From Patellaria atrata CBS 101060 (lineage: Eukaryota > Ascomycota > Dothideomycetes > Patellariales > Patellariaceae), in the NCBI GenBank assembly GCA_010093705.1, contig MU006109.1:1-64000 (forward strand): a stretch of 64,000 bases of DNA, in the 5' to 3' direction. A model generated the notes under the pieces. It was not told the DNA's origin and ran no database searches. It worked only from the letters and a program-made list of their open reading frames with translations. The position numbers and the translations under genes were made by a program. Positions 4,814 to 24,843 of the stretch are shown here, one piece after another (position 1 is the first letter of the stretch; every line of letters begins with the position of its first letter).

Positions 4814-5179
4814 TCTGGCGTTAAGGGTGAATCTTATTCAAGGTCGGGTCTCGATTCAAATCTCCAATTTGAAAAATGTATCGTGGTCGAAAAAACTGCG
4901 AATCGAGTTTAACTAAAAAGAGAGTTAATAATGTCATTCGGCATTATGGTTTACGTCGGTTGATGGTGTGTCTCCACTTTTTTTCCAACTCTTTTGCGGT
5001 ACCTTTGACCCTTTGATACTTTTTTTATTGATAATGGCAGCGTATTTGTGTGCGTTTTAAAGTCAGGATTTTACAAAGATTGCTCTAGTAATAACTGTGG
5101 AAGTAGTACTTGACTATATTTATATATTTAATGATAATATACGGTCGCAATAATTACCTAGAAAGCTAAAAAAGATAAC
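4814..5179. other. Intergenic: RBR ligase promoter and P450 3' end
   Basis: Both neighbours are on the minus strand, so this 366-bp gap should hold the RBR gene promoter and the P450 3' region. No specific site is recognised. Confidence 0.4.
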
Positions 5180-6787
5180 TTACGGAGTAAGATCTATAGG
5201 GTAACGTTTACTGATAATAAGCCGACAGTCACGATCAGGATGCGTTGGAGCAAAGACAATATGACATTTAGAAGGCATAACCAGCGGGTTTCCATATTCA
5301 TCCACATTTGTCGGTGAATATATGGCGTCCTTAGGTAGAGAGAATTCGTAGTCTTTCAGTAGGTTTGCTAGGATGGTCATCATTTCAGCCCATGCCAAGT
5401 TACGACCAATACAGCTCCGAGCGCCGTAGGAGAATGCGAAGAGGTTGCGCTTGGAAGCTTCGTTATTCAAAAATCGATCCGGAAGGAATTTCTCGGGCTT
5501 TTCCCAGGTATCTGCGCGGTAATTCATTGCTATGAGGTTGAAGGCAATATCCGTCTGCGGCGGAAGATAATGACCTTGCAGGGTGATACTCTTTGTAGAC
5601 GAAAATCTGGGCATGAATCCTGAAGTTATAGGGGAGTACCTGAGCATCTCATATAGGAATGACTCGAGGAACGGGAGACTACGGCGACATTCGGCAAACG
5701 TAACGAGGTGCTCGAGAGAAAATTGGCTGCGCACCTCATCCTGAGCCCGCTTCAAATATTCCGGATATAGCGTCAATAGGTGGAGAGACCAGGTGAGCGA
5801 GGCAGATGTTGTTTCACTGCCAGCTAGTTGCATTCCAACGCTCTCAGCTTGCACTTCGACTGATGACATCTTTATCTTTGACTCTGGGTCTTCAGCGTCT
5901 ATGAATGCTTGGAGCATGTCAGCTGGCTTTTCGACAAGGTCAGTGCCAACAAGTAAGTCCTTGCGCTTAGCCACTGAGTCTCGACTGTATCGGACAAACT
6001 CATCGTATAAACGGATCCAGCGTCGAATCAACATGGAAAAGGGGAAAACTAGTAGCAAGTTAAAGTGGATCCGGACGCCAACATAGACAGCAGTGGCAGC
6101 TATCCAGTCGACGACTGTTAGGTCATTTGTAGCTAAGGAGCCACTTTCTTTACCAATTTCCCTTCCGAACGCGAGCGCACTCATTATGTCGAAGGTGGCC
6201 AGTTGAGTATCATGACGGTAATTGATTACGATAGGCTTATCACTATTCTGTTTTATCAACTTATCCCATTTCTCTTTGATCGCTAGGATGCCGTTACGAA
6301 GGATAAGTGGTTCCATTTTTGCGATGTAATTCAGGTTAAAATATGGATTGATCTGGCGGCGCCGACGGCTGGCAAGTGAAACGTCGTTGAAGGTAACAAT
6401 ATTGGCCATAACAGGGTCATTCAAACCATGGTAAACATCGATCTTCTGGAACTCGTGAGATCCTAGTACAGCTCGAACATCTTGAGGATGACTGATGCAG
6501 ACAGTATTAGGCTTAGATACGTAGATATCGCCATATGTGCGGTAGTCAGCCAGAGCAGCTGCAAAGACTCTTGCCGGAGTCCGATTAAATATTGCCCGGA
6601 GTGATGTTATACGCGCGAAAAATGGACCCCGAATGTGACGCAACGGCGAGAAGAAGTAAGCCTTAATGATTCGCCACAATAATATGAGCAAGAATATGTA
6701 CACTAAAAGTCGTGGATGTCCAATGTCGCGGACTTTTGTGTAGGCGTCGGCAAGACGGTCCAGCCAGTCGTTACTTATGATACCCAT
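5180..6787 (-). CDS. Cytochrome P450, fusidane-cluster type (CYP5081-like)
   Basis: A single uninterrupted 535-aa reading frame. An N-terminal hydrophobic anchor (about residues 27-46) suggests membership of the ER membrane. The I-helix carries AGSETT (322-327), the K-helix EMLR (380-383), the PERF-like region is DRF near 437, and the heme loop is FSYGARSCIGR with axial Cys459. All hallmark residues are present, so the enzyme is probably active with a P450 reductase. It is clearly paralogous to the P450s at 18244 and 20488: shared blocks include GDIYV, ISHP, RRRRQI and [12 protein letters not shown]. The CYP5081 label is inferred from its partnership with a protostadienol synthase, because helvolic acid P450s belong to that family. 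Which carbon it oxidises cannot be read from sequence. Confidence 0.88.
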   Translation of the reverse strand: MGIISNDWLDRLADAYTKVRDIGHPRLLVYIFLLILLWRIIKAYFFSPLRHIRGPFFARITSLRAIFNRTPARVFAAALADYRTYGDIYVSKPNTVCISHPQDVRAVLGSHEFQKIDVYHGLNDPVMANIVTFNDVSLASRRRRQINPYFNLNYIAKMEPLILRNGILAIKEKWDKLIKQNSDKPIVINYRHDTQLATFDIMSALAFGREIGKESGSLATNDLTVVDWIAATAVYVGVRIHFNLLLVFPFSMLIRRWIRLYDEFVRYSRDSVAKRKDLLVGTDLVEKPADMLQAFIDAEDPESKIKMSSVEVQAESVGMQLAGSETTSASLTWSLHLLTLYPEYLKRAQDEVRSQFSLEHLVTFAECRRSLPFLESFLYEMLRYSPITSGFMPRFSSTKSITLQGHYLPPQTDIAFNLIAMNYRADTWEKPEKFLPDRFLNNEASKRNLFAFSYGARSCIGRNLAWAEMMTILANLLKDYEFSLPKDAIYSPTNVDEYGNPLVMPSKCHIVFAPTHPDRDCRLIISKRYPIDLTP

Positions 6788-7784
6788 CAGTGATTGTAGG
6801 TGGATTGTAGAGCAAAGGACGAAAACAAGCAGACCATATCTAGCAGTTAGGTCATAAAATCTAGTAGAACACGGTCGGTGAATATATAGCTCTGTCTAAA
6901 TTTCTACGACGAATACATATATTACCATATCTGTGCCGCGTCTAAAGCAAGTGGCATGGTTTCCTTTGCAGGAGATCGACACGATCAAGCTTATATTCGC
7001 CGCTGCAGCTAATATACCGCGAAAGTCCTTACCACCGACAGGAGGAAGTACTGTACAACCGGTTGTTGTGGGGCGTCGCCACCTGATGAAACGGCACGAA
7101 GTAACATTCTGTAGTCGGTGTAAGCTTGTACGGTCGTACAGTAGACGAGTACTGTAACAAGGGATCATCAACAGATAAGTGAAACCGTATTGTATATCAA
7201 GTTGACAACAGTGTGGGATGAGTTACGGTATGTTTGTCGCGTCCACTTGTTTCTAGTTTGTCAACGCTGGGAGCTCTATCTAATCTACCTAAGATCTCAT
7301 CTCCGGTGATTGACCGTTAACACGTAACTTCATCACCACCAGATCTCCGTTCTATAAAACACGCTCTGTAAGAGACCACCCTAATATTTCCTGGCTAACC
7401 TTGAGCTGTAGATTAGATGTCTCCTCTACTTTCTCCTTGCTCTCATCACTTCGCACATTGCGGCAGTGAAGAGCTCGATCGGCAATGGTTATGAATCTTT
7501 GGCCTTCTCAAACGGAACGTTGCATGTATAACGACAAATACTCGAGATGGTACCTCGTCGTGCGCGCACTTTGAAATGGGAACTCGAGATGGGCACCCAC
7601 CCAATGTTAGGAGTGCGTGTCAATCGTGTCGAAACAGACCTAAGAGGAATGGGATATGTCCGCAGAATATACAACAGGCATTTTTCTCACCAAAGCATGA
7701 TTTTGAAAGGTAAGTACCGTTTGAAGGCTCGATTAATCATACTTTAGATTTGAAATAGGGGAGCCTTGGTCCTTTATTCTACGC
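6788..7784. other. Intergenic between two cluster P450s
   Basis: About 1 kb between the start of one minus-strand P450 and the end of the next. It should hold the promoter of the 5180-6787 gene near its right-hand start. Short frames here have no protein character, and no remnant or site is recognised. Confidence 0.4.
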
Positions 7785-9520
7785 CTACACTTTCCGTTCG
7801 CGCTTCTTGAATAACACCTTTCCTGTTGGGTCAGTGGAAATCCCTAATCCATTTATCCTATTCTCGGGCCTCAATCCCGATTCTATCTTGACGTGGTAAT
7901 GTAATAAGATGTGGGAGAGCAGAATCTTGATCTCGTTACCGGCAAAGAATCTTCCAGGGCAAGCGTGTACGCCGTGACCAAAACTTAGCGAGTCCGGACC
8001 TGTCATGGCGAATTGATGCTTGTTTTCGGAGCCGGGGACTGCGCGCAGCTTTGCAAAGCGGAAACCGTCGAACGTTTCTGGATCATTCCAAAGTGTGCCA
8101 TCTCGCGTGACGCCCCAGGAGGGAACTGCGATGGAAGTGCCTTTTGGAAGGACGGTACCATCTGACAATGTGATATGAGACATTACTAGGCGCCTCATAG
8201 CGACTGTTTGGTAGGACTATTAGTACTGTCTCCGAAGCGAGTTATTGGGTTGTCAAACCTAGCCCTGGGGGACTCAGCCTCTGGGATTCCTTAATAAAGC
8301 TGTCGAGTTTTCGTAATTTTATCATTGATACTTTGGTCATTTTCTCTCCTGTCTCCGCTAGGACGCTCTCGATCTCTTCACACAGTGGCTCAAGATACTC
8401 TGGGTGTGCACACAGGTCGTAGAGGCAATGACACACCTTCACCATCTTATTGTTAGCCAAATATCGCACTCTGTAAGACATAATTTCTTAGCTCTTGTTG
8501 ACAGCGGTTCACATACAGTCGTACTCGTGGTATCTGAATTTCATTTAGCTTGCATTTGATTAAACAGTCACTGATTGGAGTAAATTTACGAATTGCAGCC
8601 ATGCTCAGAGTCAACTGAATATCAGCTTGCCTATCTACTGAGCTTTCTCGTGTTCCTGTCGCGTTCTCTAAGGCCCATTGAATCATATCATCTGGCCGCT
8701 TAAAGTTTGGGTCTTTCATATCCTTCACGCGTCGCTGTATGATTGGCGTCAAAAGACGCACTGCCTCAGCCCTGTGCCTTTTTATCGCTCGGGTTTCTGG
8801 GCTAAACGGAACAACAAAGGGCCGTTTCCACGCTGGGATCGATGCAAACTTCTGAGAGGCCATGAAGCTTACAATGGTGAAATTGATCGAGATTCTGATC
8901 CAATCTTCATTGCGATTCAGCGGCAAGCCAACAAACACACGACCTGATATCAATGCCACTATACGAAGAAGAGCAGGATAGAGGTAAACTGGAGTCCATT
9001 CCTCGCAGGCGCCGATGTTGCGATCAGCTGCAAATTCCATCTCATCCTGCAGTGCCTCTAGAGTTTTGCTAATGTAACGCGTTAGATCCACTTTCACGGT
9101 ACTGACCATGGTTTTACTATTATGGCCGATGCCAGTGTAACGGCCTTGAAAGAGATTGCGAATCTCCTGCTTGCTGCTCAGTTGCCATTCTGGCAGAGAT
9201 TTGATTTCATTGATGAACTTGAGCGGGATCAGGGTAAGGAGACGACCTTGGACTTGAAGCTGAAAAGGCTGATCGGGATACTGTGTTTACTTAGCGGCGG
9301 TTTACCTAATACATTGAAGAACTTTGAGTACCTTTTCGTACCCAGCCTTGACCACAGGTCGAAAGTCTGAAGACCCTTCGGGAAGAGTCATAATGGGTAG
9401 ATCCAGCAGCTTCTTTTGCCATGGAATGAAGCTTTTTCCAAGATAAAGAACAACCAGGATTGAGAATACAACCAAGATTACTGGAGAGGACATAAATGGA
9501 AAAAACATGACCCTATCCAT
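7785..9520 (-). CDS. Cytochrome P450, CYP68-like, five exons with a 17-nt microexon
   Basis: Exons 9520-9332, 9280-8590, 8533-8517, 8436-8259 and 8203-7785 splice in frame to about 497 aa; an upstream ATG at 9586 would add 22 residues. Introns are 51, 56, 80 and 55 bp with GT..AG ends. The 17-nt third exon encodes the core of the I-helix, joining MAAI to HTTSTT, which matches the HTTT-type I-helix of the CYP68 group rather than AGxDTT. The K-helix is ESQR and the heme loop FGHGVHACPGR. A membrane anchor lies near the N-terminus (VILVVFSILVVLYLG). CYP68 enzymes include gibberellin and other terpenoid oxidases. This type is unlike the three other P450s in the cluster, so it may provide a distinct oxidation. 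An intact gene is favoured over a pseudogene because all junctions keep phase. Confidence 0.82.
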
Positions 9521-9586
9521 AATTTTGATATTCTTTATAGAGATCTTGGTGATAAATTTCGAAATTGATGTCGAAGAAGAGAGCAA

Positions 9587-10309
9587 TTTGAACCCGTCTT
9601 TACTATCTTACAACTTACAAGACAAAAATATAAGTTAACTTTTCTACTCGGAACATACCTAGACGAGGTGCAAACGGTAAATACATTCATATAGTGGAAG
9701 GGGAGAGCTGATTTCTATATGCGGTAGGTTACATTTTGTTGCAGAATATTCCATTCGCCAATGCAAGAGGGACAGGGTCCCCTGGGGATGATTACGTCGG
9801 ACGGCCCTAGTTTAGAATTTCCTCCTTTCCGGAAAGCAAAAGCTCTCTAATTGCTTAGCTCTCTATCCACTTATACTTTGTGCAGGTAAGAGTTCATAAT
9901 TGACGATCTATCTCCATCAGCGGGACAAATTTGTGTACAGAGCTAGCCGAGAATTTTAAGTTACTTGCAGGGCTCATGTTAATGTTGAGGTCGTCCATTA
10001 CCCTTGAACAAACTTTTTTCGGAGCATAAATTAACAAATCAGAATTCTCGCCGTCTCCACTGTGGGCTACTGTCGAAATGCTTGAACGATGCTTGAAAGA
10101 CGGATAGATGGAGACCTTGTGGCGTGGAGTATTTGGATCGAAGCTACCGGGACGTAGATAACGGAAGCATTCAATGGAAATACGATATGAACTGTTATGA
10201 ACCGGGTAGATCTAAGCAAATTTGGCGTAAAAGCTTCTTCGGTTAAAGGTTGGAACCTATATCGAAACCGTGACCATTAGCAGCCTTCCCGCCAACAACT
10301 ACATCAAAA
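9587..10309. promoter_or_regulatory. Divergent promoter region, CYP68-like P450 / extended SDR
   Basis: A 723-bp gap between two genes that diverge from it (P450 on minus, SDR on plus). Shared upstream DNA is common for co-regulated cluster genes. I do not recognise a specific factor site. Confidence 0.4.
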
Positions 10310-11523
10310 ATGGTAGCAGCGAAGAATCAGATGTCTCAGCCAAGTAACAACGATGTTCTAGTAATTACAGGAATCAACGGTTACATAGCAAGTGTTCTCG
10401 GCTACGCACTCCTCAAGAAAGGATATCATATACGTGGTACCGTAAGAAGCTTGGAAAAGGCGAAACCGTTGCTTGAAGGAGTCTATGCCCCGTATAAAGA
10501 CCGCGTGCAGATCTATCAGGTGCCAGATATCACAGCAGATGGGGCCTTTGACGAGGTTGTAAAAGGTGAGAAGTGAATCCAGTATGGAAACTTACTGCTT
10601 GGAACAAGAAGTTTTGAGCATGTAGATTAACCATTGTTCTACCTATATGGAAGAGTTCTTGACTCACATAACATCTTGTAGGTGCCCATGGGATTTTTCA
10701 TATTGCTTCCCCTGTCGGTATGTCACTCAAAACGTATGACGAAGCCATCAAACCTGCAATTCGCGGCTCTACTGGTATCCTTTCCTCTACCTTAGCCCAC
10801 GCCGGTCCTCAGCTAAGGGCAGTCGTCGTAACCTCTTCGATCGCTTCCCTCTTTTCTGGCCGGCCAGGACCGGGAGAAATCATTACTGAAGCATCTCGAC
10901 CAAACCTCGACCTGTTAACTCTACGCGTTCGGCTCGAAGCGGGTGAGATCAAAGCACCAGTTTATGCCCTCTCAAAGATTGCCGCCGATGTCGCTGTCTG
11001 GAAGTGGTATGAAACGAAGAAGCCCCCATTTTCCTTATGCTCTATTCACCCGTCCTTGGTAATTGGGCCACCTGTAACTATCCCCTGCTCCGGTGACGCA
11101 CTCTGTGAGACGCTTCACCCACTGTGGGAGATATTTTCCGGAAAATCCTTGACGCGACTTCCGACTTTGGGTAGTGGCCTTTACGTCGACATCCGTGATG
11201 TGGTTGATATGCATTGCTTTGGATATGAGCATCCCGAAGTTGTTGATGGGCATAGGTTCATCGCTTCCGGTGGATTCGGACCGGCTCAAGCTATCGCGGA
11301 TATTTTGCACGCGGCGTATCCTATGCGAGAGGGAAAGATGCCGAAAGGGAAACCGGGGGAGGGTTATATTGGTTTTCAGGATGGAAAGGTAGGAAAGGTT
11401 CAACCGATAGAAGGTGCCGTAACAATCAGTAGCAAAAAAGCAGAGAAAATGATGGGAATTAATTGGGTTGACTTTAGGGATAGTGTAAGAGATACCGCCA
11501 AAGCTCTTGAAGTTCTCCTATAA
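10310..11523 (+). CDS. Extended short-chain dehydrogenase (dihydroflavonol reductase / 3-beta-HSD-like)
   Basis: Exons 10310-10565 and 10682-11523 (intron 10566-10681, 116 bp) give 365 aa. The NAD(P) loop is TGINGYIA (20-27), the family signature continues at GAHGIFHIASPV (86-97), and the catalytic pair is YALSK (Tyr180, Lys184) with a preceding TSS. Length and motifs fit extended SDRs of the DFR/cinnamoyl-CoA-reductase/3-beta-HSD group. Sterol C-4 decarboxylases (ERG26) share this fold. In a fusidane pathway an SDR is needed to oxidise the 3-OH during C-4 demethylation and possibly to reset C-3 stereochemistry. That role is inference; substrate cannot be read from sequence. Confidence 0.82.
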
Positions 11524-11876
11524 AACCTTTCCCTCTGCTAGCACAAGTGTTTTATTAATAGGAGTCACTTAGCATAGAGAGTTTCTTCGGTTACAAAAGA
11601 CAATTGGGTTCCAAGTTTGTGCATTATGTACAGTTCAAGTGTTCTACGACTTTGCCGCATTCGGACCATCCTTTCGTCTATTCTAGATCCCTTGAGTAGA
11701 CCTTCGCTGCCATCGAAAAACATGACTAAATCCAAGAAAGTATTTTAGAGATGAAGAACCAAATAAATGAGTTGAATATATATCACATGTCCAAGTATTT
11801 TCCATTGACATGGTATAGCTTCCATCGCATACATAAACAAGTTCTTCAGGGAAGTTGAAACCCCTTTAAGTGGTAT
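11524..11876. other. Convergent 3' intergenic region
   Basis: A 353-bp gap between the ends of the extended SDR (plus) and the acyltransferase (minus). It should contain both 3' untranslated regions and polyadenylation signals. Nothing else is seen. Confidence 0.4.
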
Positions 11877-13346
11877 TTAGTAAACAAGTTTGGTAAAAGC
11901 ACGAAGTTGGACATTTTTGAGCAATGAAGTCATGACATTTGGTCTTAAGGTAAGAAAGACATAAACATCGTTTTGCTGGGATGCTGAGGGCATGATCACC
12001 GCAACCGTGTTGGAGTATGCCATAGGAACAACGAAAGCAGGTCGACCGAATCCAAAATCAACATCGTAAAAGGAGAGCCGTGACTGATTGGAGAATGCTT
12101 GACAAACGATCATAGAGTAGAGTACATTGGCCTTACGACCAACCAAATTGATGACTCTCAGTGCCCGGCGTATGAATTGCTCTACTGTCTTCTTGTCCAC
12201 ACAATCCACAGTTTCTCTGGAGATGGACGCAACTTGCGCGAGCGATTTTAGAGTGATTGAACTGAGGAGAGCGTCTCGCGGAGCCGTAACATACAGCCCG
12301 ATTGCGCAATTGCCGGCATAATGGTCAGGCATACCGATTCGACGGCGAAAGTCGCAAGGAACAATAGCACTTGCACTTTTACTACCAGAACCAAATAACT
12401 TCTTTGCAGTTTTGGCAAGAAGACTGGCTTTTGAATCTACCTCAGCACTTACCTTCTCAGTACTTTGGGAAAATGCCATGAGGAATAGTGCGGTGATGAC
12501 GTCGTTGTCTGAAACACGAAGACCATCTGGTCGAAGTCGAAATGCCTCTTCGCGTACATCGCTGAGTGTAGATCGTGGAATACGGAACATGTGACTCTCT
12601 ATGTAATCTGGTGCAGATTGTTTGGTAGAGAATAGAACATAGAGCCTCAGCAGCAGCCGTATTAACAGTGATAGAAGGACCGAGAGCCAAGTACGAGGGT
12701 CCACCGGGTTTCTATTAGGCCTAACGTCTTTCGGGAGGTATTCGTACATGACTCTACGATCGAGGATCGGTTCCACTACCATGTTAGGCATGCCTTGTCC
12801 AAGGCTTTCACGGCAATGCTCAGCCCAACAATTCATAAACGCGACGCAACCTTTCGCATCAAAAACGCTATGCGAGATACGTACTACTATGACCACGCCG
12901 CTATTCTCAGCTAGCCGGTGGACACGTACGTGAATAAGCTTTAAGACTCCCCGATAGTCCACCTGTGAGCGTGGATCGCGAATATTCATTCCCTTCGGCC
13001 ATTGTTCGCGATGAAATTGCGCCTGTTTGATGTCTTGGAAATAGACATTCTCATTCAACTCCTCATAGACGGGCATGTTCGGGTTGTTGCGGTCGACAAC
13101 AACACTCATTGCGTTCAAACCCTCCTGCGACAAAATTCCGACAAGAATTGGAAACTTTTGCAGCGCGTGATAAAATGATGTGCTGAGAGCTTCACCGGTC
13201 ATGAATGGTGGACATTTCGCTGACGGCTCGTTCTCAAAAAAGTACGCATTGGTGATATACAAATGGCTCGGAATGATGTCCAGCGGTGAAAGCATGTATC
13301 TCTTACTACTTAGGCTGCGTAAAAAATCCTCCATGTTTTCGGACAA
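11877..13346 (-). CDS. BAHD-type O-acyltransferase
   Basis: A single 489-aa frame. The catalytic HxxxD motif is HSVFD (His159-Asp163), and the C-terminal structural DFGWG motif appears as DFGFG, followed by RPAFVVP. Both are diagnostic for CoA-dependent BAHD acyltransferases, and the length is normal for the family. There is no signal peptide, so it should be cytosolic. Known fusidane clusters use such enzymes to acetylate ring hydroxyls (C-16 acetate is common to helvolic acid and fusidic acid). The position next to the cyclase supports acylation of the triterpenoid. Acetyl donor and target carbon are inference. Only one such gene is visible here, whereas the helvolic acid cluster has two. 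Confidence 0.85.
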   Translation of the reverse strand: MSENMEDFLRSLSSKRYMLSPLDIIPSHLYITNAYFFENEPSAKCPPFMTGEALSTSFYHALQKFPILVGILSQEGLNAMSVVVDRNNPNMPVYEELNENVYFQDIKQAQFHREQWPKGMNIRDPRSQVDYRGVLKLIHVRVHRLAENSGVVIVVRISHSVFDAKGCVAFMNCWAEHCRESLGQGMPNMVVEPILDRRVMYEYLPKDVRPNRNPVDPRTWLSVLLSLLIRLLLRLYVLFSTKQSAPDYIESHMFRIPRSTLSDVREEAFRLRPDGLRVSDNDVITALFLMAFSQSTEKVSAEVDSKASLLAKTAKKLFGSGSKSASAIVPCDFRRRIGMPDHYAGNCAIGLYVTAPRDALLSSITLKSLAQVASISRETVDCVDKKTVEQFIRRALRVINLVGRKANVLYSMIVCQAFSNQSRLSFYDVDFGFGRPAFVVPMAYSNTVAVIMPSASQQNDVYVFLTLRPNVMTSLLKNVQLRAFTKLVY

Positions 13347-13967
13347 TCTGAAAATGAAATGAGTGAGAAATTGGAGAACTGAAGTCGGCTATTCAGAGAT
13401 ACTGTAAGTGGTCTAAGTATTTCATATTTCCGATCATGTGATACGTATGGTAAGGAACGCATTAAACGTCGAGGTCGAGCATGGCCAAAAGTTAAGGCTA
13501 CAGCTCCATTAGCGGGATGTCAAGGTTTGGAAGCTCGGTCAGAATAAATAACAGTTGTACTAGTACTGTTTAGCTGACAAGGTATTTCGGGCGATATGAT
13601 TGTGTAATAGCTTACTAACTGGAAGGGAAAGTTTCGCGTAGCACCTTCTACAGCCTAGGTATCACAAAGCTAACACATTGGATGGAACCGCAATGTAGTT
13701 GATTGCCCACGGGATATGTGGGACCGCTTTCATCGAATAGATTTATTCTGGAACGATGATTGCAATGTATACAAATCTACGCGAATTCCAAACTCTGACT
13801 GCTTTAGATGTGTATGTATCCCATGAAAACTACACTGTTGAAAGCGTCGGCAACTTCGACAGCGACAACACAACCGAAGACAGTAGGAATGAAAGAATGA
13901 CCCGCAGGTTATAAGAAAGGAATGCAGATCGGTTAGAGAACTCTGGGTATAGAAAGCCATTTTTGGC
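13347..13967. other. Intergenic: acyltransferase promoter / cyclase 3' end
   Basis: A 621-bp gap between two minus-strand cluster genes. It should hold the acyltransferase promoter on its left side and the cyclase 3' region on its right. The short frame overlapping the cyclase 3' end is a shadow. No site is recognised. Confidence 0.4.
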
Positions 13968-16199
13968 TCAGTAGAGAAGCTGCTCGTTACCATACAGCTT
14001 TGCGAAACGCCCAAGAGCCGAAAGGGTAAAGTGAAACTTGTAATTAGGATATCGCATGCCGCCTGGAGGAGCAAACACTCCCTCAAGTGCACCAGGTAAC
14101 CAATCACCAGTTTGCTGCTGCTGTTCCATGAGGTACGCTATACCACGCTTTATGGCCATATGGTTGGTGCAGTTTGCCGCCATCAGACCGATGACGGCAT
14201 AAGAGGTATTTGTGACTTGACTACCAGCTGGATCTTGCACATATTGCTTCGTCCTTGCACTTTCGAGGGACTCCCCCCAACCGCCATCCGGGTTTTGATG
14301 ACTGAGTAGAAAGTTGCAGGCACTTTTGCACGCAACAGAGATTCTCTCAGAAACGTCAACACTCGCCAGTCCTTGTAGTGCAAACATTGTAGCATATGTG
14401 AAGCAGACACCCCAACTTGCAAACCAGCCGCCATTCGGGTACTGCGCGCTTAAAAGGTAGTTTACGCAGCGGTCAATACAGTTTTGAATATCATTAGTGC
14501 GATAGTCGGGGTACGCCTTGGCAAATGTCGTCAGACTTGTCATGACCGAACCGGTACACTCGGGATATAGTTGGTCTGTCATGACGTTCTCATATAATTC
14601 CGTAATATTCATGAGCTCTAGGCATAGGGGTCCACGAATCGGCTCATACGCGGAATATCCTCCGCCATTATTTTCCATCTTCAAGACAAGGTCAACCGCT
14701 TGTTTGAGCCGCTCGTCCGAGATCAGTTTGGGAACAAGTTGTGCTTGCTGAAGAAGAACAACAACCTTCACTGCTTCAGCTGTAGTGTCGGAGACGACGT
14801 ATGACTGATCACGCGTACTGAAAGGCCAGCCGCCCTTAGTAGCTTGCCTATAAACCCGGTTTAGACCGAGGGGGTTCTCGCGGATCTGCGTGTTGTCGAT
14901 GAATTCAAGTGCAGTTCGTAGAATTTCGCTGTTTTCTGGGTGAATCGCTATTTCTGAATCGATTGTGGCCTGGAGTGTGAATACGGTATCCCAAAGTGAT
15001 GTACCATTAGTACCTGATGCTGCCAGACCTTCGCGGCACATCCACATTGGATCAATGATACGCTCGCGCATGCCGCGAACCCAATGGCTGTCAGGACCGT
15101 GGGCGTGAAACATGGCAAGCATGTTAGATGCGAAGCTCACAGGTGCAATACACAAGTAGTTCGTATTGCGTACCTCGGCTTCGATCTGGAACAGAGCTTC
15201 CTCAAGTGCCCATCGACGCAGAAAAGGTAGCCTCAATCGTTCATGTATCTGAAGCATAGTTGCAACAGTACGCTGGGTAAATGTAATTGGTGCGAGGCGA
15301 TCAAATTTGCTGATATTGTTCCGTTGAGCAGGCCAGTCAATATGTTCGTAGGGTCGGTCGTAAAGTTCCCGGCGTAAGTCTCTTGTCAGATCGTTAAGTT
15401 GCATTACGAATTTATGACCATAGAAATAGCTCATGCTGATGAAAACGTTACGAGTGTGAACCCACCATTGACCTGGACTTAATGGTAACATGCTTGGTGT
15501 AAGCAACAGCTCTGGAGGTAGTGGAGTCATACCATCCCACTCGTATACTCCAAGAACGCATAGCCAGAATTTCCCCCATGTAGGAGTTGTCAGTATACCG
15601 CCCATTCTGGTCAGAGCACTGCGTGCCTTAGTCAGTACTGAATGCTTGGGTGACACTCCTAATATGCGTAGTGTGATGTAATTCATGACTGTACCAAAAA
15701 CTGTAGATGGACTTTGAATGAATAAGCCCCAGCCACCATCTTCATTAGAGACGTTCATCAGGTAACGACACATCTCTCTTCTCATGTGAGGTTCGAATGA
15801 ATTTCCCATGATAAAGTTGACAATGACAATTGCGCTCGTTACAAAGAGAGGACCGTCGTCGTTACATCCCCAATGACCATCTTGTGCCTGTAGACGTTTG
15901 AAGAATTCCCATCCGTTCTCAATAGCCTGCAATGGTCGTTGGGCCCGCGGAAGCGTAGGCATTTCAAAGGGTAAACCAAGCCAATATTTCTCGAGGAAGC
16001 TCTGAGGCTCTTCCGAGGCCTCGTCATCAGACAAATAGGTCCACATATGACGTCCATTCTCAACCCTGAGCCGCCAACGCGTAAGATCAGTTTTATACTC
16101 TCTCGCCTCCGTGGTATCAGAGAAATCGGCTCGGCCAATCGTGGAACCGTCACCTTTTATCATGGTCGTGATGTGATGACTCCAGTCGTTGAGATGCAA
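13968..16199 (-). CDS. Oxidosqualene cyclase, probable protostadienol synthase
   Basis: A single 743-aa frame, the normal length for fungal oxidosqualene cyclases. QW-type repeats include DGHWG, DGGWG, NGGWF and DGGWG. The active-site His region is WWVHTR (His248), and the channel region is NVFISMSYFYG. The protonation motif, usually DCTAE, is DTTAE (471-475) with catalytic Asp471; the second cysteine that contacts this Asp is kept in ECTG (Cys548). Near the C-terminus lies APPGGMR (710-716). In A. fumigatus protostadienol synthase exactly this block replaces the NKSCAIS block of lanosterol synthase, and swapping it redirects the product. The predicted reaction is (3S)-oxidosqualene to protosta-17(20)Z,24-dien-3-beta-ol, the committed fusidane step, at ER membranes. 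It is not the housekeeping ERG7, since it sits among P450s, SDRs and an acyltransferase. Confidence 0.92.
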   Translation of the reverse strand: MHLNDWSHHITTMIKGDGSTIGRADFSDTTEAREYKTDLTRWRLRVENGRHMWTYLSDDEASEEPQSFLEKYWLGLPFEMPTLPRAQRPLQAIENGWEFFKRLQAQDGHWGCNDDGPLFVTSAIVIVNFIMGNSFEPHMRREMCRYLMNVSNEDGGWGLFIQSPSTVFGTVMNYITLRILGVSPKHSVLTKARSALTRMGGILTTPTWGKFWLCVLGVYEWDGMTPLPPELLLTPSMLPLSPGQWWVHTRNVFISMSYFYGHKFVMQLNDLTRDLRRELYDRPYEHIDWPAQRNNISKFDRLAPITFTQRTVATMLQIHERLRLPFLRRWALEEALFQIEAEVRNTNYLCIAPVSFASNMLAMFHAHGPDSHWVRGMRERIIDPMWMCREGLAASGTNGTSLWDTVFTLQATIDSEIAIHPENSEILRTALEFIDNTQIRENPLGLNRVYRQATKGGWPFSTRDQSYVVSDTTAEAVKVVVLLQQAQLVPKLISDERLKQAVDLVLKMENNGGGYSAYEPIRGPLCLELMNITELYENVMTDQLYPECTGSVMTSLTTFAKAYPDYRTNDIQNCIDRCVNYLLSAQYPNGGWFASWGVCFTYATMFALQGLASVDVSERISVACKSACNFLLSHQNPDGGWGESLESARTKQYVQDPAGSQVTNTSYAVIGLMAANCTNHMAIKRGIAYLMEQQQQTGDWLPGALEGVFAPPGGMRYPNYKFHFTLSALGRFAKLYGNEQLLY

Positions 16200-16660
16200 C
16201 AGAGGTAAAGGCGGCGTAGAAGAATCTACTAAATTGATATTACCGTGAGTATTAAGATGAAGGATGCGAGTAGTGATATCTTTGTACAGATAGAGGGTTA
16301 GAGGAGGATTATAGTACTGAAATGGACGACTCTAAACTTGAAAAGTAGCTATCCAGTTTAGGAATCCACCTACCCTAACATCGAATGAGATATATCATTT
16401 AGTCATCTAATGAATGAGAGCAAATGTATTTGATAGTACTAATACCACGTTTTACGCTCGGGCACGGCGCATCAGATAGAGCCGAATGAAGCATGTCAGC
16501 CTACTGATACATGGTATATCCGCCGCTATATATGTGTCCTCGAATTTCTCGCGAACCCTCGTCATACTTTTGCTATTTGATTTTATCTTTTCCGTATCGG
16601 CTTTCCCCGCCCTTATTTTCCCACTTCGTACTTTTCAAGCTCATCCGAGTATAACGTATT
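16200..16660. promoter_or_regulatory. Divergent promoter region, cyclase / classical SDR
   Basis: A 461-bp intergenic region from which the cyclase (minus) and the SDR (plus) are transcribed apart. Short pyrimidine-rich tracts lie close to the SDR start. The arrangement suggests co-regulation of the first pathway step with a tailoring enzyme. No specific binding motif is claimed. Confidence 0.45.
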
Positions 16661-17440
16661 ATGCTCTCTTCCGTCAAGACTGCCATCATAACGGGCTCTG
16701 CTCAGGGCGTTGGATTTTGTATAGCTAAGGATTTAGCTAAGCGTGGATACAAGGTGGTCATCAGCGACATTGACACAGAGAAGGGATCGCAAGCTGCCAC
16801 AGAGGTCAACAAAAACCATGGTGATGGAACGGCGGTCTTCATTCCTTGCGATCTCACGCGCACCGAGGACATTGACAATTTGTTGAACAGTACGGTTGAG
16901 AAATTAGGCGGTTTTTCGGTATTGGTTAACAACGCTGGATTTTTACGGGCACCATTCTTAGCGATCTCTCCCAAGGATATTCAGGATACGATTGGAATTA
17001 ATCTTACTGCACCCATATACGCGACACAACAATGCATCAAATTGTGGAACGAGAATCCGGAACAGAATGGGCAGGTGGTCACAGTTACATCGTCATCTTC
17101 GTTTAAGACGTATGCTAGTATCTCAGCATACGGTGCTGCAAAAGCTGGTGCTGCACAGTTTACGTTCGCATCGCGCGCATTTGGACCCAGAATTCGCATC
17201 AACGCAGTTGCTCCCACCGCTATAGCGACCAATTTCGAGAACAACAAGATGCGTGTTCAAACGGACAAGGTGGGAGCGGGTTACACTCCTGAACCTGAAA
17301 TGCGGGCCATGGGTCTTAACAGGTTACAACCCGAGGATGTTGCCAACGGAGTTGTTCGGTGCATTGAGGATGATTCGATGTATGGCCAGGTCCTTTATCT
17401 TGATGCAATTGAGGGAATGAAGATCCACAGCAGCTTTTAG
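16661..17440 (+). CDS. Classical short-chain dehydrogenase/reductase
   Basis: A single 259-aa frame of normal classical SDR length. The cofactor loop is TGSAQGVG (11-18), followed by NNAG (90-93), a serine-rich catalytic stretch TSSSSF (143-148) and YGAAK (Tyr157, Lys161). There is no signal peptide or membrane segment, so a cytosolic oxidoreductase is expected. It shares a divergent promoter region with the cyclase. Fusidane pathways need an SDR for C-3 oxidation linked to loss of a C-4 methyl and, for 3-alpha-hydroxy products, a ketoreductase. Either job is possible; which of the two SDRs does which cannot be decided from sequence. Confidence 0.85.
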   Translation: MLSSVKTAIITGSAQGVGFCIAKDLAKRGYKVVISDIDTEKGSQAATEVNKNHGDGTAVFIPCDLTRTEDIDNLLNSTVEKLGGFSVLVNNAGFLRAPFLAISPKDIQDTIGINLTAPIYATQQCIKLWNENPEQNGQVVTVTSSSSFKTYASISAYGAAKAGAAQFTFASRAFGPRIRINAVAPTAIATNFENNKMRVQTDKVGAGYTPEPEMRAMGLNRLQPEDVANGVVRCIEDDSMYGQVLYLDAIEGMKIHSSF

Positions 17441-18243
17441 TCCAGGATGTGGACACATATGGAGACACATATGGAGACACAGGATTGAGACATGATGGAA
17501 CGCAATCTTCGCTTTTCAGTGAGGGGTCGTATGTCATAAAACCAGAAAAAGAAGGTGTCATCCGTCTGGCAGAGTGAAGTGGCAAGTTCTGATATGAATT
17601 TTCGATCGCTAATAGTAGGTAGAAAGTAGATTAACTTGAAGATTTTGGAAAATGGATGTTGAGGTTGTGATAAGATTCTACTATGCTTTCCCCCATTGTG
17701 ACTAGTTCCAATCTCTTCTTTTTCAGCCGTGTACATATCAACCGACAAAATGCACCGTTGCTCTCAAGGTAACATAACTAGAGCTATTTCAATGCAATGC
17801 AGGCTATCTTACTCCCCTCGCTTTCCCTTGACTATTGCAGCTTGATTTCATTACCTATAGCAACTCTTTGCAAGGGTAAAGAGGCGAATTCAAGGTTGCA
17901 ATATCCGGTTAAGAAGACAGTGCTGTGAGATGTTCTCAAATACTCTCTAATCAATGAGATGAGATTCATAGGCATTGATATCATATAGTCAGCGGTACAA
18001 ATACATAGAATGTAAGTAAACGGTATGGTCATATTGGTCAGTTATTAGAACACACAACGATGACTGCGGCCTTGCGAACTCTTGATCCGACACAGAAGTT
18101 TCCTCACAACAATACAATTACGTGTGAACCCCCACAAGCGCAGTGATTGAGACGAGAGCCTAACTATAGAAAGAAGAATATATCGTAAGTTTTCCTATTT
18201 GCAATTCCGTGGATCTCAGCCAACCTTTACAGCGCAATCCACA
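17441..18243. other. Intergenic: SDR 3' end and P450 promoter
   Basis: An 803-bp gap between two plus-strand cluster genes. Right after the SDR stop there is a three-copy micro-repeat of an ATGGAGACACA-like unit (about 17446-17482). The right side should hold the P450 promoter. Nothing else is recognised. Confidence 0.45.
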
Positions 18244-19824
18244 ATGGTGGCCCTTGATGTCGACTGGTTTAACATCTTGACCGAAACTTATTCCTCTCTC
18301 AGAGACTTCGGCATCGCACGCCTTCTCACGATAATCATTGGAGTGTTGTTGGCTTTCCGCCTCGTTCATGCCTTCTTTCTCTCACCATTACGCAATGTCC
18401 CTGGGCCACTAGTTGCTCGTCTGACAGCGAAGCGCGGTGATTTGGACAACTTCTCTGGCAGAGTGGCCCAGAATGTACAGGCCGATTATGAGCGATACGG
18501 TGATATCTATGTGTACAAACCAAATGCTGTATGCATCAGTCACCCTGATGATATACGGGCTGTGTTGGGGTCACAATCGCAAGAGTTTCGGAAGGCCAAG
18601 TTTTTTGATATCTTTGACGATGGTGGTACCCCCAACATTGTGTCTCTGAGGGAACCGGAACTTGTCAGTCGTCGACGTCGTCAAATTGGTCCATTCTTCA
18701 ATTATAGCTATCTAGACAAAATGGAAAACATCATCTTGAGCAGAGGATACGAAGCCATGAAGGCGAAGTGGGATAAACTAGTCCACGACAATGACGGTCA
18801 ACCAACAGAGGTCAATTATCGTATCGACACTCAGCTAGTCACGTTTGATATCATGAGTGCCCTAGCCTTCGGTCGCGAGTTCAATTCCATAGCCAAAGGC
18901 AGTTCATCCATTACCAAGTGGACAGGAACTATAATGTCTCTTCTGGATTCCCCTTTCGTTCTCGGCCTATTATCACTACTTCCCTTCTCGCTCGTTATGC
19001 GCCCTTGGAAATATATGTATCGCGATCTTGCTGTATACAGCAAAGAGTCCATAGCCCAACGGAAAGCTGTCCTTGCTAGTAGGAGCGCAAAAAAACCTGT
19101 CGACATATTACAAGCCTTTATTGACGCAGAAGATCCTGAGTCCAAAGCGAAGATGACTCCACCGGAAGTACAAGCGGAAAGCATAATGATGATGCTCGCG
19201 GGAAGTGAAACCACTTCGTCTGCTATCATGTGGTCGTTCCATTTGCTACTACTATATCCTAAAATCCTTCAACGCGCGGTTGCCGAGGTTCGTAGTGTGT
19301 TCCCTCTAGAGCATCTTATCACTTACAAGGAAGTGCGTGATCACTTGCCTTATGTCGAAGCTTGTGTTTATGAAGCACTACGTCAATCACCTACCACGGC
19401 TGGATTGACACCACGTATCTCTTACAGTAGGGGTATATCTATACAAGGCCACTATATTCCACCAAACACTGAAATCTACGTTAACCTACGGTCTCCCAAC
19501 ATGCATAATAGTCTTTGGGAGGATCCGAATCGATTCAATCCGGAACGTTTTCTCAACGATACTGCTAAGCATGCGTTGTTTACATTCTCATACGGTCCTC
19601 GCATCTGCATCGGCCGAAATCTTGCCTGGGTCGAGATGCTAACAATTATTGCCAACACCCTCAAGGATTACGACATAGCATTACCTGAAAATAGCCTATT
19701 TAATCCAGAAAATGTTGATGCTCAAGGTCTTCCGAAGCTATTACCTTGTCGGTGTTTCATTGCATCTTTCCCAGAAAATCCAGACCGCGACTGTCGTCTA
19801 TTGATTACCAAGCGTACCGAATGA
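18244..19824 (+). CDS. Cytochrome P450, fusidane-cluster type (CYP5081-like)
   Basis: An intronless gene. I chose the ATG at 18244 (MVALDVDW, 526 aa) because it aligns with the starts of its paralogues; an in-frame ATG at 18199 would add 15 residues. A membrane anchor covers about residues 23-46. The I-helix is AGSETT (319-324), the K-helix EALR (377-380), the PERF region is PERF (433-436), and the heme loop FSYGPRICIGR has axial Cys455. It shares long blocks with the P450s at 5180-6787 and 20488-22074 ([28 protein letters not shown]). All key residues are present, so it should be active. It is a cluster tailoring oxidase of unknown regiochemistry. Confidence 0.88.
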   Translation: MVALDVDWFNILTETYSSLRDFGIARLLTIIIGVLLAFRLVHAFFLSPLRNVPGPLVARLTAKRGDLDNFSGRVAQNVQADYERYGDIYVYKPNAVCISHPDDIRAVLGSQSQEFRKAKFFDIFDDGGTPNIVSLREPELVSRRRRQIGPFFNYSYLDKMENIILSRGYEAMKAKWDKLVHDNDGQPTEVNYRIDTQLVTFDIMSALAFGREFNSIAKGSSSITKWTGTIMSLLDSPFVLGLLSLLPFSLVMRPWKYMYRDLAVYSKESIAQRKAVLASRSAKKPVDILQAFIDAEDPESKAKMTPPEVQAESIMMMLAGSETTSSAIMWSFHLLLLYPKILQRAVAEVRSVFPLEHLITYKEVRDHLPYVEACVYEALRQSPTTAGLTPRISYSRGISIQGHYIPPNTEIYVNLRSPNMHNSLWEDPNRFNPERFLNDTAKHALFTFSYGPRICIGRNLAWVEMLTIIANTLKDYDIALPENSLFNPENVDAQGLPKLLPCRCFIASFPENPDRDCRLLITKRTE

Positions 19825-20487
19825 GTTCCAAGTAAACTTATCTCCAACCTTTGCAGATTCATGAACAACTGACAGTTCCGAAAGTGCACCTTAAGTAATG
19901 TTAGGAGGATATAAGGTAGAGTTGAATATCATGATCTGATAGTGAGCTAGATTTTGGTGTCAAGGGTTAGAATACTTCAGTGTTCGTTATAAGAACCTTC
20001 ATCTTTAGTCGCATTGAGCTCATAATTTCGTTTTGAATAATATAATACCGCTATAGGTAATAACGCAATACCGAGGCGTTCTGACGCTGAATAAAACAGG
20101 GCGCATATGCAGGTCAAAGTCTAAGCTTGATATGCAACAACTTCCACTCTACGAGGCTGGTACAACATTTCCTTATGTAGAAATCCCCTCGAGTATCTAC
20201 CATTATATGGTGTAGAGAGTTTTTGTAATATATCTAAGCTATCCCTTTGTTTTCTTTCTTTCATTCTAAATGGTATGTAATTTTCCCCCAAACCTGGTAG
20301 TCTATGTTCTTCCATCAATTCCTTATAAGATTTCCACAACTCTATATCGACGCAATCCAATAAGTGGTAAAATGAAAAATATACTTCCGATTGTGTGATA
20401 AACTTTCAGCATTCAAGTTCCAAATTCTATTAATATCTTTATCTTTCAACTTCGTTGATCTCCAGAAAGAATTCATTATTCCAAAAA
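19825..20487. other. Intergenic between two paralogous P450s
   Basis: A 663-bp gap between head-to-tail P450 genes. It holds the 3' region of the first and the promoter of the second. A short minus-strand frame (20121-20360) has no recognisable character and is left out. Confidence 0.4.
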
Positions 20488-22074
20488 ATGTCGACCCCAA
20501 GCATCAATCTAGACATTTATTTTACCAAGGTCCACCATCTTATTCAAGAGTTTGGGTACATCAAATTTTTCATATCCTTGGTTTGCCTGCGGTTGATTTG
20601 GTGTATCACATACGAACTATTACTTTCTCCGTTGCGTAATATACCAGGCTCGCTTCTCGCACGTCTCTCCGCAAAACATTCGATCCTCAAACGTGTATTT
20701 GGTAATGGACCGAAATTAGTTCAGGCCGACTACGAAGCATATGGTGACATATATGTTCATAAGCCTAACGGCGTGAGCATCAGCGACCCAAAGGATATAC
20801 GAGCGATACTCGGCTCGCAAGAGTTTAGGAAGACGGCAATCTATAAGACGCTCGACATTCTCGAGAGACCTAGCGTCTTTACAAATACGGATCCCTTGCA
20901 GGCCAGTCGAAGGCGCCGACAGATAAATCCGTATCTGAATCATGGGTACTTGGGTCGGATGGAACCAACGATAATCCGTTACAGTATCATTGCAATCAAA
21001 GCGAAATGGGAAAGACTTCTCCAACAGAGTAGTAGTGAATCTGTAATTATCAACTACCGAAACGATACGCAGTACGCTACTTTTGATACCATTGGTGCAC
21101 TAGCATTTGGAAGAGAATTTAATTCACTCGTCAACGACGATCCCTTAATTATAAGGTGGATCGAGGCTACTGGTCTTTATCTAGGCCTAACTAAGAATTT
21201 CTCTATACTTAATATTTACCCCTTCTCGCTGCTAATTTCTCGGCACAAGAAGCTGTTTGAAGAATTTATCAACTATAGTAAAGAGTCGGTAAATCAACGT
21301 AAGGAGGCACTTGCTCGTAAGGGTAGTGGTGAAGTTCAAGAAGAGAAACCCATCGACTTATTGCAAGCTTTTATCGATGCTGAAGACCCAGAGTCAAAAA
21401 TTAAGATGAATCATCACGAGGTCCAGACGGAAAGTATAGCCATGCAGCTGGCGGGCAGCGAGTCAACGTCCTTTGTGACATCCTGGGTTATCCACCTACT
21501 TACCCTCTATCCACAGCATTTGAACCTAGCGGTTCAAGAGGCCCGTCAATTCCCATCTGACCAGCTTATTTGCTTTCGTCACCGAACGGAGCTACCTTAT
21601 TTGGAAGCCTGCATCTACGAGACATTACGCTATTCACCAATCACATCGGGATTCATGCCCAGGGTCTCCCACAGCAAAGGGATTAATATTCAGGGATATT
21701 ACATCCCAAGCGGTGTGGAGGTCGCGATAAATTTGATCGGTGTCCACGCAAATCCTAAGATATGGAGATCTCCACACCTCTTCGACCCAAGCCGTTTTCT
21801 TGAGGATGAAGAAGCTAAAAGGAACGTTTTTGCTTTCTCTTACGGGCACCGCAACTGTATCGGCCGGAATCTTGCCTGGGTCGAGATGCTGATTATCATT
21901 GCTAACATCCTCAAAGACTTTGATATCAGTCTCCCAGAGGATAGTGTTTACGGGCCACATAACGTAGACGAGCTTGGACGTCCTAGGATCATGGCCACGA
22001 GAAGCTCACTATTCACGACACCCAAGTACCCGGAACGCGACTGTCGTTTAGTTATTAAAAAACGCGCAGTGTAG
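20488..22074 (+). CDS. Cytochrome P450, fusidane-cluster type (CYP5081-like)
   Basis: An intronless gene of 528 aa from ATG 20488 (MSTPSINL); an upstream in-frame ATG at 20455 is possible. A hydrophobic anchor is followed by SPLRNIPG. The I-helix is AGSEST rather than AGSETT, with the second threonine kept. The K-helix is ETLR, the PERF-like region PSRF, and the heme loop [11 protein letters not shown]. It is a close paralogue of the genes at 5180-6787 and 18244-19824 and lies head-to-tail with the latter, as expected from tandem duplication followed by divergence. It marks the right end of the recognisable cluster. Its role as a protostane oxidase is inferred from context. Confidence 0.87.
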
Positions 22075-23566
22075 ATACTTCGTAGGATTCCTTTTAGTGC
22101 TGTAGTTTTGTCAGATCACGCTAGCTTGCAGAATTTACTCAATTCAGCTGTCAATGGTCACCCTCGCTCATAGGTCGAAGAAAACTCCAGGCTGGTGGAT
22201 CCTATATATAACTAATTCTCCATGTGTACATGAACCTGTACTAGCCAGGGGATTTTCATTGGTCGTAATTAGTGTGTCAAGTCCAGTGAAGGGGTAGTGA
22301 CAGATGTAAAAGTCATTATAACTTGAGCTTAGTACAGTGTTCTGAGTTAACGGGATTGTTCTAGATGGTGCGAAACTGGTGTTGTACCCTGCATGTATTA
22401 AGAGTATACGCTCCTTTCATGTGAAAACCATCAAGAGGCAGCTTCATACCATATTGCGATCATCCTACTGATTATTGACTTTTTCTTCCTTTTTTTCGTG
22501 TCCCGGCTCCCGTTGCCACGTTGCACACCACCCTTTGCCGCTCCACGCTATAACACGATATTTCTCTCTGCGTTCTTTCCATACTTGGCCGACGGTGATT
22601 GAGTCCCTAATGATCTCTATCCGACCAGACGACCATCGGTGGCGATGTCGACGATAGTAATCGTAGTGAGTTCGGATTCAGAAACTTAGCACAGTGCGAC
22701 AGTATGGTAAGGGTACCTGGCTTGCGAGGTTCGAGATGATTGTAAGCTCATTACTGTCAATGGTCAACTCAATCCTATCGCGCCCTTACGGTGGTAAGAC
22801 CAATGTTAACCTAGATTCTCGTGAAGTGAATGACACTCCGGTACCTAGCTATGTTAGCTCCTTTGCTCTCAGATTGACTTGGCTGAGATATCGGATGGAG
22901 TGGAAGGCGATGATTCTAGGATCCTAGATAGGTATATCTCTCATCTACGGGAGCATCTGGCTTGAGAAAGTCACCGGATACGGATCGCGCATACCTTGCG
23001 AAGGACAACAGCATATAGGAGGTGCTTACGGCCGTGAAATCGGTTCAAACGGACTATCGGTGTCTTCTACACAAAGTAGTCTTCGAAGAAAATCCATCTT
23101 TAGCATGAAACTTTACAGAATTTGATAGGAGGTTTGGCGATATAAGTACGGCTCGTTGTCTCTTCTGCCGCAACCGTAGTCTACTGTTAATGAGATTCCG
23201 TCGCCACCCACGGAGTATCTTCAGCAATACTTTGCACTTCCCAACTACATCAGCGGACGAGCATAACATGTTGCTATGTCTCACCACGTTTTGCTTTACC
23301 GGTCCTCGAGCACCGAAGGCGTCCTCCGCAGGGTAACTGACAAGCGCAAACAGTGAGGAAAGTAAAGTCCAATGCAGCTCGTCATTTAGCTCTGACGTAT
23401 CCTTTGTTCACTCAAGAACCGTAACCTCGCCGTATTTCTGCCCCACAATCTGCACGGTTCACTTGCACATATCTTCAGTCAGTGTGAAAAGCACTCTCGT
23501 TGTGGCCATTTTCCGCAGTCTGAACACTTTCCACGTACCAACAATGGTCGACTCCAATGCCACAGA
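22075..23566. other. Decayed or non-coding region right of the cluster
   Basis: About 1.5 kb without a supportable gene. One exon-like frame at 22873-22965 (encoding a charged segment ending in DRYISHLREHLA) sits behind a plausible splice acceptor, so a gene remnant is possible. No product is recognised. The region borders the amidase relic. Confidence 0.35.
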
Positions 23567-24843
23567 GTGGTATCCATTCGAACGCTCATGCGGATGAACA
23601 CTGCTTATTTCGGATCCGAGACGTTCAATATGTTGCCGTGCCGATACCAATCGTCAGTCCAGCCTCGCCAATTATCAAGTTACATGGCGCTAATGAGAGA
23701 AAAGTTGCCTAGGAGTAACTATCCCGCAAATAAGATCGTACCTGTGACTGTCATAGCAGAAACCCTTCATGAACACTTGAACGAGACTCGGGTGAAAAAT
23801 CTAATTGACAGATGGTTGCGCGCGGACGATGCTTTCTGTCCTGAGTTCCTTCAAAACGTCGTCTTTATCATGCCTGTGGGCCAAACTTCGGACCTAGGAG
23901 GTATCCAAAGCAGTCTACAATCTCTCTGGGGTACTGAATGGTCTTCAACTATTTCGTTAGCTACAGTCAGCGGTAGCATCACTTCAGGGCCATTTGTTTT
24001 GTGGAAGGGGGAATTGTACAAAGCTTTCAGGCTATATGACGATATACAATAAGCATTTATCATTGCGATAAAACCTCAAATAGAGAAAGGGTAAGTATTG
24101 TGCACTCTTAAACCTTTCAAAAACTCACTCCAGCTAGACCATTCGAGAGGTTTACCAGGAATTGCATCAATTTCGAGAAGACTACCGAGCGAAGTACTCG
24201 AAAGAACCTTACGTAAATCCAGTTACGCGCTGTAGATACTTCGTTTCCTTTGGTCCAGTCAGAATACCATACTAATGTCCTTTAGGGAGGCGGCAAAAAC
24301 GTTAACGAAGAGCAGCACAAGGATGCTTTAGAGCGCTTAGCTGTCTATAAAGAGTTTCTTCTTAAGGAGGTGCTCCAGGGAAACCTGCGTGAAGCTCTTG
24401 TAGTCCTTTCCATCACGAGTCAAGCGGTAGACTACCGGAACGCAACTGTCGAGTCTGTTACACCCTATCAGCTATACGACATTCTCTAACATAGAATTAG
24501 TCCTCCTTCCGCGCCGAATGCGTTAGATGGAATATGGCTTGCGCCAATATTGAGCGCACCAGAACTCTCAGTCCCAAGTAAGTTTGCTACCCACCAAGGC
24601 AGTAACGCTACTACGCGTAGCATCTGATAGGTTACAGTCGAAGAGATGGAGTATGTCTCAGATCTGAGCAAGCGAAAAGAGCATTTACTGATTGTGGTGT
24701 CGCTTCTTGGGAGACCTGGCTCGGACATGAAACTTCTAGATACTGCTTGTCGAACCTTGGACCGCTCTGGACGCACCAGTCTCGTTAGTACAGGAAGCAA
24801 GATGAACATCGGAGGCAAATTTGTGAAGGAGGATCCGGCTTGA
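23567..24843 (+). pseudogene. Amidase-signature family relic lacking its catalytic core
   Basis: An N-terminal part (23567-24052) resembles the prodomain-like N-terminus of fungal amidases and ends in GPFVLWKGELYKAFRLYDD. The next recognisable piece, about 24145-24235 (QELHQFREDYRAKY, PYVNPVTR), belongs near the C-terminus of the same family. It continues at 24290-24490 and 24500-24843 (APILSAPELSVP, SLLGRPGSDMKLLD). Two or three introns with good splice signals remain. The whole Ser-Ser-Lys catalytic domain, roughly 300 residues, is missing between 24052 and 24145, and an in-frame TAA at about 24487 interrupts the C-terminal part. It is therefore a dead gene. The family call comes from my memory of amidase C-termini and needs a search. 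Confidence 0.6.

Follow-up and report, generated by a model that had tools for sequence, protein, structure and literature searches.

Which product is made by the triterpenoid gene cluster of the ascomycete Patellaria atrata CBS 101060, and is it a new one? The window analyzed here, i.e., the whole stretch of 64,000 nucleotides from contig MU006109.1, carries within positions 5180-22074 eight intact biosynthetic genes: one oxidosqualene cyclase, four cytochromes P450 (P450_1 to P450_4), two short-chain dehydrogenases/reductases (SDRs, one classical and one extended), and one BAHD-type acyltransferase. An earlier note on this DNA had seen in them a fusidane (protostane) cluster with a non-standard gene set, with a product other than helvolic acid and possibly a metabolite of a new antibiotic class. 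Our analysis leads to a more familiar answer. Sequence comparison points, with a probability of about 0.72 by our own estimate, to a fusidic-acid-type fusidane cluster, whose predicted product is fusidic acid itself or a near relative of it, for example 3-ketofusidic acid; the complete cluster most probably represents a known pathway in a new place, and not a new antibiotic class.

The argument starts from the gene classes. To make fusidic acid, six genes that also serve the helvolic acid (hel) pathway (cyclase, three P450s, HelC-type SDR, acyltransferase) act together with FusB1, a P450, and FusC1, an SDR (PMC8902786; PMC12299000), and putting fusC1 and fusB1 into an Aspergillus oryzae strain with the six genes led to fusidic acid (PMC12299000). 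The class counts of the fusidic acid (fus) pathway and of the window are identical, at the level of class only. Beside the cyclase stand, by class, the three P450s, the HelC-type SDR and the BAHD acyltransferase of the fusidane core, and this six-gene core is supplemented, again by class, with an extra P450 (P450_2) and an extra SDR (the extended SDR). Being identical by class to the fusidic acid set, the gene set is not non-standard, a label that arose because the comparison had been drawn mainly with helvolic acid. At gene-class level, an identical set has already been assigned to a known compound, a case that the earlier note had itself set against its proposal, and a new antibiotic-class metabolite finds no support in a class set that is that of the known fusidic acid pathway.

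Classes were assigned by Pfam together with motifs, and the open reading frames (ORFs) of 120 amino acids or more were listed inside 5180-22074; those remaining beside the eight genes all overlap them. Internal stops are absent from all eight. Six genes have a single exon (P450_1, the acyltransferase, the cyclase, the classical SDR, P450_3, and P450_4), and introns occur only in P450_2 (five exons) and the extended SDR (two exons), whose models were built by hand and whose introns (5/5) all follow the GT-AG rule. The P450 family PF00067 was found in each of the four P450 proteins (E 4.1e-45 to 1.4e-68), as was the heme loop FxxGxxxCxG. The eight genes, their classes and their interval as given in the earlier note are confirmed by Pfam, motifs and stop-free gene models.

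Residues 22-727 of the cyclase align with human lanosterol synthase (E 6.5e-171), and residues 698-704 read APPGGMR at the place of NKSCAIS in the human enzyme. CfaOSC2 from Cordyceps farinosa, which has ACPGGMR in its C-terminal region, is a functional protostadienol synthase in yeast, where it gave two products, protostadienol and a minor isomer, in a ratio of 95:5; the same paper ascribes to the motif a role in protostadienol formation (PMC8227516). APPGGMR falls under the pattern A[PC]PGGMR, which was taken as the mark of a cyclase of this kind, and the enzyme is predicted to be of the protostadienol synthase type; no other single observation speaks as strongly for the putative fusidane pathway as this motif does. 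With the APPGGMR cyclase and the class set, the fusidane (protostane) assignment of the earlier note becomes very probable. Single-protein queries, which capture close relatives only, confirmed no relative of the cyclase in genome-contig and viral-contig collections, which are non-fungal, and none of P450_3 in the viral-contig collection. The cyclase had matches in 50 plasmid records, none of which reached 60% identity; five were listed, of which two carry the annotation prenyltransferase/squalene oxidase repeat protein and the other three have none under the match.

Along these lines, the P450s are informative. P450_1, P450_3 and P450_4 are paralogues, with pairwise identities of 47.9-50.6%, to which P450_2 is unrelated (20.9-22.3%). 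The hel cluster of Aspergillus fumigatus holds four paralogous "backbone" genes, duplicated from an ancestral monooxygenase and other genes, and two of their four Metarhizium counterparts are labelled P450 (PMC5088523). We take these backbone genes to be the four P450s of the hel cluster; measured against them, the window has three such paralogues instead of four. In the published pathways the common fusidane precursor is reached through HelB1, HelB2 and HelB4, and HelB3 is used for helvolic acid (PMC8902786). On the simplest reading the trio as a group stands for HelB1/HelB2/HelB4, and its combination with an unrelated P450_2, set against the four hel paralogues, fits a cluster in which HelB3 is absent and the extra P450 is of another kind. 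P450_2 is a candidate FusB1-type hydroxylase, with C-11 as its presumed position of attack. The 60 of its 262 PDB matches that were listed include no named CYP68, the best of these being "Sugiol synthase" (residues 216-466); the fungal enzymes CYP68L1 and CYP68L8 act as steroid 11alpha-hydroxylases (PMC11673057), which would suit P450_2 if it were CYP68-like, the label given to it in the earlier note.

One classical SDR and one ketoreductase-like SDR suit the one oxidizing and the one reducing step of the fusidic acid route. In the classical SDR an aspartate is read after the second strand (VVISDIDTEKG), as is usual for NAD-dependent SDRs. HelC has been assayed with NAD+ (PMC5696383), and the classical SDR is a candidate HelC/FusC2-type 3-hydroxy dehydrogenase for oxidative C-4 decarboxylation. 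In the extended SDR, YALSK could be read directly, and its best PDB matches are a ketoreductase (1.3e-32) and aldehyde reductase II (5e-32). Its RGTVRS aligns to RGTARS; members of the ketoreductase/aldehyde reductase group use NADPH, and the protein is a candidate FusC1-type 3-ketoreductase. From the same substrate FusC1 produces fusidic acid and FusC2 its C-3 epimer (PMC8902786); FusC1 in yeast fed with the ganoderic acid GA-TR gave complete conversion to a reduced product, and yields were low in FusC1-carrying co-expression strains (PMC12234687). The acyltransferase shows both the HxxxD motif (as HSVFD) and DFGFG. Its PDB matches are weak and partial (seven sequences, the best, at 1.4e-08, a probable hydroxycinnamoyl transferase), and it is a candidate HelD2-type 16-O-acetyltransferase.

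A route can be proposed on this basis. The cyclase would convert oxidosqualene to protosta-17(20)Z,24-dien-3beta-ol; the three paralogous P450s would oxidize the C-4beta methyl group, C-16 and C-21; the BAHD enzyme would acetylate the 16-hydroxyl; and the classical SDR would oxidize C-3, upon which the C-4 carboxyl would be lost. The extended SDR would then reduce the 3-ketone to the C-3 alcohol of fusidic acid, in the role of FusC1, and P450_2 would hydroxylate C-11, in the role of FusB1. In the hel pathway the C-4beta methyl is oxidized, C-16 hydroxylated and acetylated, and C-21 oxidized, before the HelC-type SDR oxidizes C-3 during C-4 demethylation (PMC5696383); in the fus pathway the C-3 alcohol is made afterwards by FusC1 (PMC8902786). 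By analogy, the C-3 hydroxyl is probably lost and then remade; that it is kept, as had been suggested before, is unlikely with a HelC-type SDR oxidizing C-3 and FusC1 restoring the alcohol later.

Several points weigh against the fusidic acid assignment. The match to hel, fus and cephalosporin P1 (cep) proteins is one of gene classes. The catalytic-acid motif of the cyclase is DTTAE instead of DCTAE, although the downstream ECT cysteine is retained in the alignment with human lanosterol synthase. C-11 hydroxylation is what we take to be the role of FusB1, and P450_2 is no more than a candidate CYP68 or FusB1-type enzyme. Furthermore, CYP68J5 failed to restore 11alpha-hydroxylase activity (PMC11673057), and steroid 11alpha-hydroxylation is apparently not bound to a conserved P450 family (PMC5622474), which leaves the 11alpha-hydroxylase clue a weak one. 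The occurrence of fusidic acid in Polyphilus, described below, is only a parallel, and, the search having been confined to the window, genes could lie elsewhere in the genome.

Among the alternatives, the one that survives best keeps the fusidane cluster and changes its end product: P450_2 would attack the skeleton elsewhere than at C-11, or the C-3 configuration set by the extended SDR would be another one, to yield an undescribed congener. The lack of relationship between P450_2 and the core P450s, with a substrate that cannot be read from the sequence, speaks for it, as does the correspondence to FusB1 and FusC1, which is one of class. However, by class the set is the same as for fusidic acid, and the two extra classes are just those that fusidic acid needs; we regard such a congener as possible, but clearly the less likely outcome.

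The arrangement of the two extra genes is of interest in this context. P450_2 and the extended SDR are adjacent, diverge from a common 789-bp region, and lie between P450_1 and the acyltransferase. As they are also the sole intron-bearing pair, we infer that the two genes form a tailoring module which was inserted into an older six-gene core. One may tentatively add that a module recruited separately in this way leads to some fusidane that is not fusidic acid, or to fusidic acid itself by means of enzymes non-orthologous to FusB1/FusC1, a proposal we hold to be rather doubtful. Base composition does not set the pair apart, the GC content at third codon positions (GC3) of P450_2 and the extended SDR being 0.510 and 0.456 versus 0.454-0.504 in the core. 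With this locus a modular history, in which a tailoring module of two genes joined a core of six, becomes testable. Signs of recent horizontal import were sought in base composition and none appeared: GC3 values of 0.454-0.510 in the eight cluster genes lie within the range of 0.421-0.606 in eight flanking genes. As to regulation, CGG-N-CCG with spacings of 0-12 was searched in nine intergenic stretches, and no spacing was seen three or more times. Seven upstream regions were compared, those of P450_2 and the extended SDR overlapping; no 9- or 10-mer was common to at least four of the seven, and the two 8-mers that were are treated as chance.

Far less probable than a different congener is a helvolic acid or cephalosporin P1 pathway that is completed by genes at other genomic sites. 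There is a precedent in Acremonium chrysogenum, where the cephalosporin P1 genes sit in two separate clusters (PMC11719821), and the present search was confined to the window. The flanks of the cluster were scanned with Pfam, at 1-4991 and 22075-37040 in all six frames and beyond 37040 by single ORFs only; 20 flank ORFs were scanned singly, 19 of the 52 (at least 110 amino acids) listed for 22000-64000 and one on the left. The six-frame scan, which may miss weak or intron-split domains (a weak beta-helix match from a single ORF was not recovered), showed no ketosteroid dehydrogenase, acyltransferase, transporter or transcription factor in these two regions, and neither a delta-1-dehydrogenase nor a second acyltransferase was found in the 19 of 52 ORFs. 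The earlier observation that these two are not visible thus holds for the scanned flanks, and the absence there of a second acyltransferase or helE-like ketosteroid dehydrogenase gene argues against both hel and cep. Moreover, the second cep cluster groups cepC2, cepB4 and cepD2 (PMC11719821), whereas here the extra P450 and SDR lie inside the core without a further acyltransferase, and the hel backbone genes are described as paralogues (PMC5088523), whereas P450_2 is no paralogue of the trio. With no helE or second acyltransferase in the scanned flanks and P450_2 outside the trio, a product other than helvolic acid, as proposed earlier, is probable. A lanostane or other non-fusidane triterpenoid cluster, for which the long alignment of the cyclase with human lanosterol synthase could be quoted, is most improbable in view of APPGGMR in place of NKSCAIS, the paralogous P450 trio, and the fusidane set of tailoring classes.

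The fusidic acid cluster of Acremonium fusidioides ATCC 14700 was reportedly described by Cao et al. in 2019. Compared by class, it agrees with the window in classes and numbers (PMC8902786, PMC12299000). In relation to the hel cluster of A. fumigatus Af293, the classes in the window correspond to helA, helB1/B2/B4, helC and helD2 (PMC5696383); helD1 (second acyltransferase) and helE (ketosteroid dehydrogenase) were not detected, the fourth P450 is unrelated to the trio, and the extended SDR is added. The cep system of A. chrysogenum likewise combines the six-gene core with an additional SDR and P450, but is split over two loci with a second acyltransferase (PMC11719821), whereas the window has one locus and one acyltransferase. 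A seven-gene cluster in Cordyceps farinosa shares the PGGMR-motif protostadienol synthase, three P450s, SDR and acyltransferase; it differs in carrying a ketosteroid dehydrogenase-like gene and in having neither the extra P450 nor the extra SDR of the window (PMC8227516).

Fusidic acid, the fusidane in clinical use (PMC12299000), also occurs outside Acremonium, since the helotialean Polyphilus sieberi yields both fusidic and 3-ketofusidic acid (PMC10995996); a Ramularia isolate also yielded fusidic acid (PMC11459954). In the accessible portions of the open-access literature, no description of a fusidic acid cluster outside Acremonium was found; the Metarhizium paper mentions genes of fusidic acid biosynthesis (PMC5088523). 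The locus in P. atrata would add a producer candidate, not a new antibiotic class, and from its compact single-locus set of eight genes each enzyme of the pathway can be had anew, most usefully the candidates for the C-11 hydroxylase and the 3-ketoreductase. The features of the cluster are compiled in Table 1.

Table 1. Coordinates of the cluster genes and selected elements in the window (aa, amino acids).
Feature	Position	Strand	Evidence
P450_1, 535 aa, single exon	5180..6787	-	PF00067 E 9.8e-60; heme loop FSYGARSCIG; 50.6%/49.2% identity to P450_3/P450_4
P450_2, 497 aa, exons 9332-9520, 8590-9280, 8517-8533, 8259-8436, 7785-8203	7785..9520	-	four GT-AG introns; PF00067 E 4.1e-45
Divergent intergenic region, 789 bp, common to P450_2 and extended SDR	9521..10309		sequence
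Extended SDR, 365 aa, exons 10310-10565, 10682-11523	10310..11523	+	one GT-AG intron; PF01370 (Epimerase) E 7e-09
BAHD-type acyltransferase, 485 aa, single exon	11877..13334	-	PF02458 E 8.7e-24; HSVFD at 155, DFGFG at 426
Oxidosqualene cyclase, 731 aa, single exon	13968..16163	-	SQHop_cyclase N and C domains; five QW-type repeats
Cyclase APPGGMR motif, residues 698-704	14052..14072	-	NKSCAIS at the aligned place in human lanosterol synthase
Cyclase catalytic-acid motif DTTAE, residues 459-463	14775..14789	-	DCTAE in the human enzyme
Classical SDR, 259 aa, single exon	16661..17440	+	adh_short E 4.9e-44; YGAAK at 157 (YxxxK)
P450_3, 526 aa, single exon, paralogue of P450_1 and P450_4	18244..19824	+	PF00067 E 3.3e-67
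P450_4, 528 aa, single exon, paralogue of P450_1 and P450_3	20488..22074	+	PF00067 E 1.4e-68

Outside the cluster, the six-frame scan of the flanks returned a RING/IBR gene, a GH43 gene, an L-PSP domain and HET domains, and 14 of the 20 singly scanned ORFs gave a Pfam match, including bestrophin, an M16 peptidase, Dcp2, Cdc14, polyprenyl synthase and ketopantoate reductase. The M16 peptidase is mitochondrial processing peptidase alpha by PDB match (best 1hr6, which we take to be a yeast structure). No tRNA and no Rfam match at the gathering threshold were found in the window. To the right of position 4000 the GC content in 2-kb windows is 0.425-0.487. The left flank, 1-4000, is AT-rich (GC 0.36-0.37) and contains five families of direct repeats, the longest a 300-bp pair with 92% identity; the RING/IBR gene provides the only Pfam domain there, and the region looks like decayed mobile or repeat DNA.

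Immediately right of the cluster, some 5 kb (22075-27064) show no Pfam match in six frames and hold ORFs of 218 and 310 amino acids. Near the cluster as well, at 27163-30196, lie a gene for a beta-helix protein (weak Pfam match, below the cut-off) and a GH43 glycosidase gene, whose products are possibly plant-polymer enzymes. An L-PSP endoribonuclease-family domain follows at 33849-34262 on the forward strand, and at about 36231-36571 on the reverse strand a HET (heterokaryon incompatibility) gene has its domain divided between two frames, as an intron or a frameshift would cause. A polyprenyl synthase gene at 61555-62346, about 40 kb from the cluster and among housekeeping genes, probably belongs to primary metabolism, outside the cluster.

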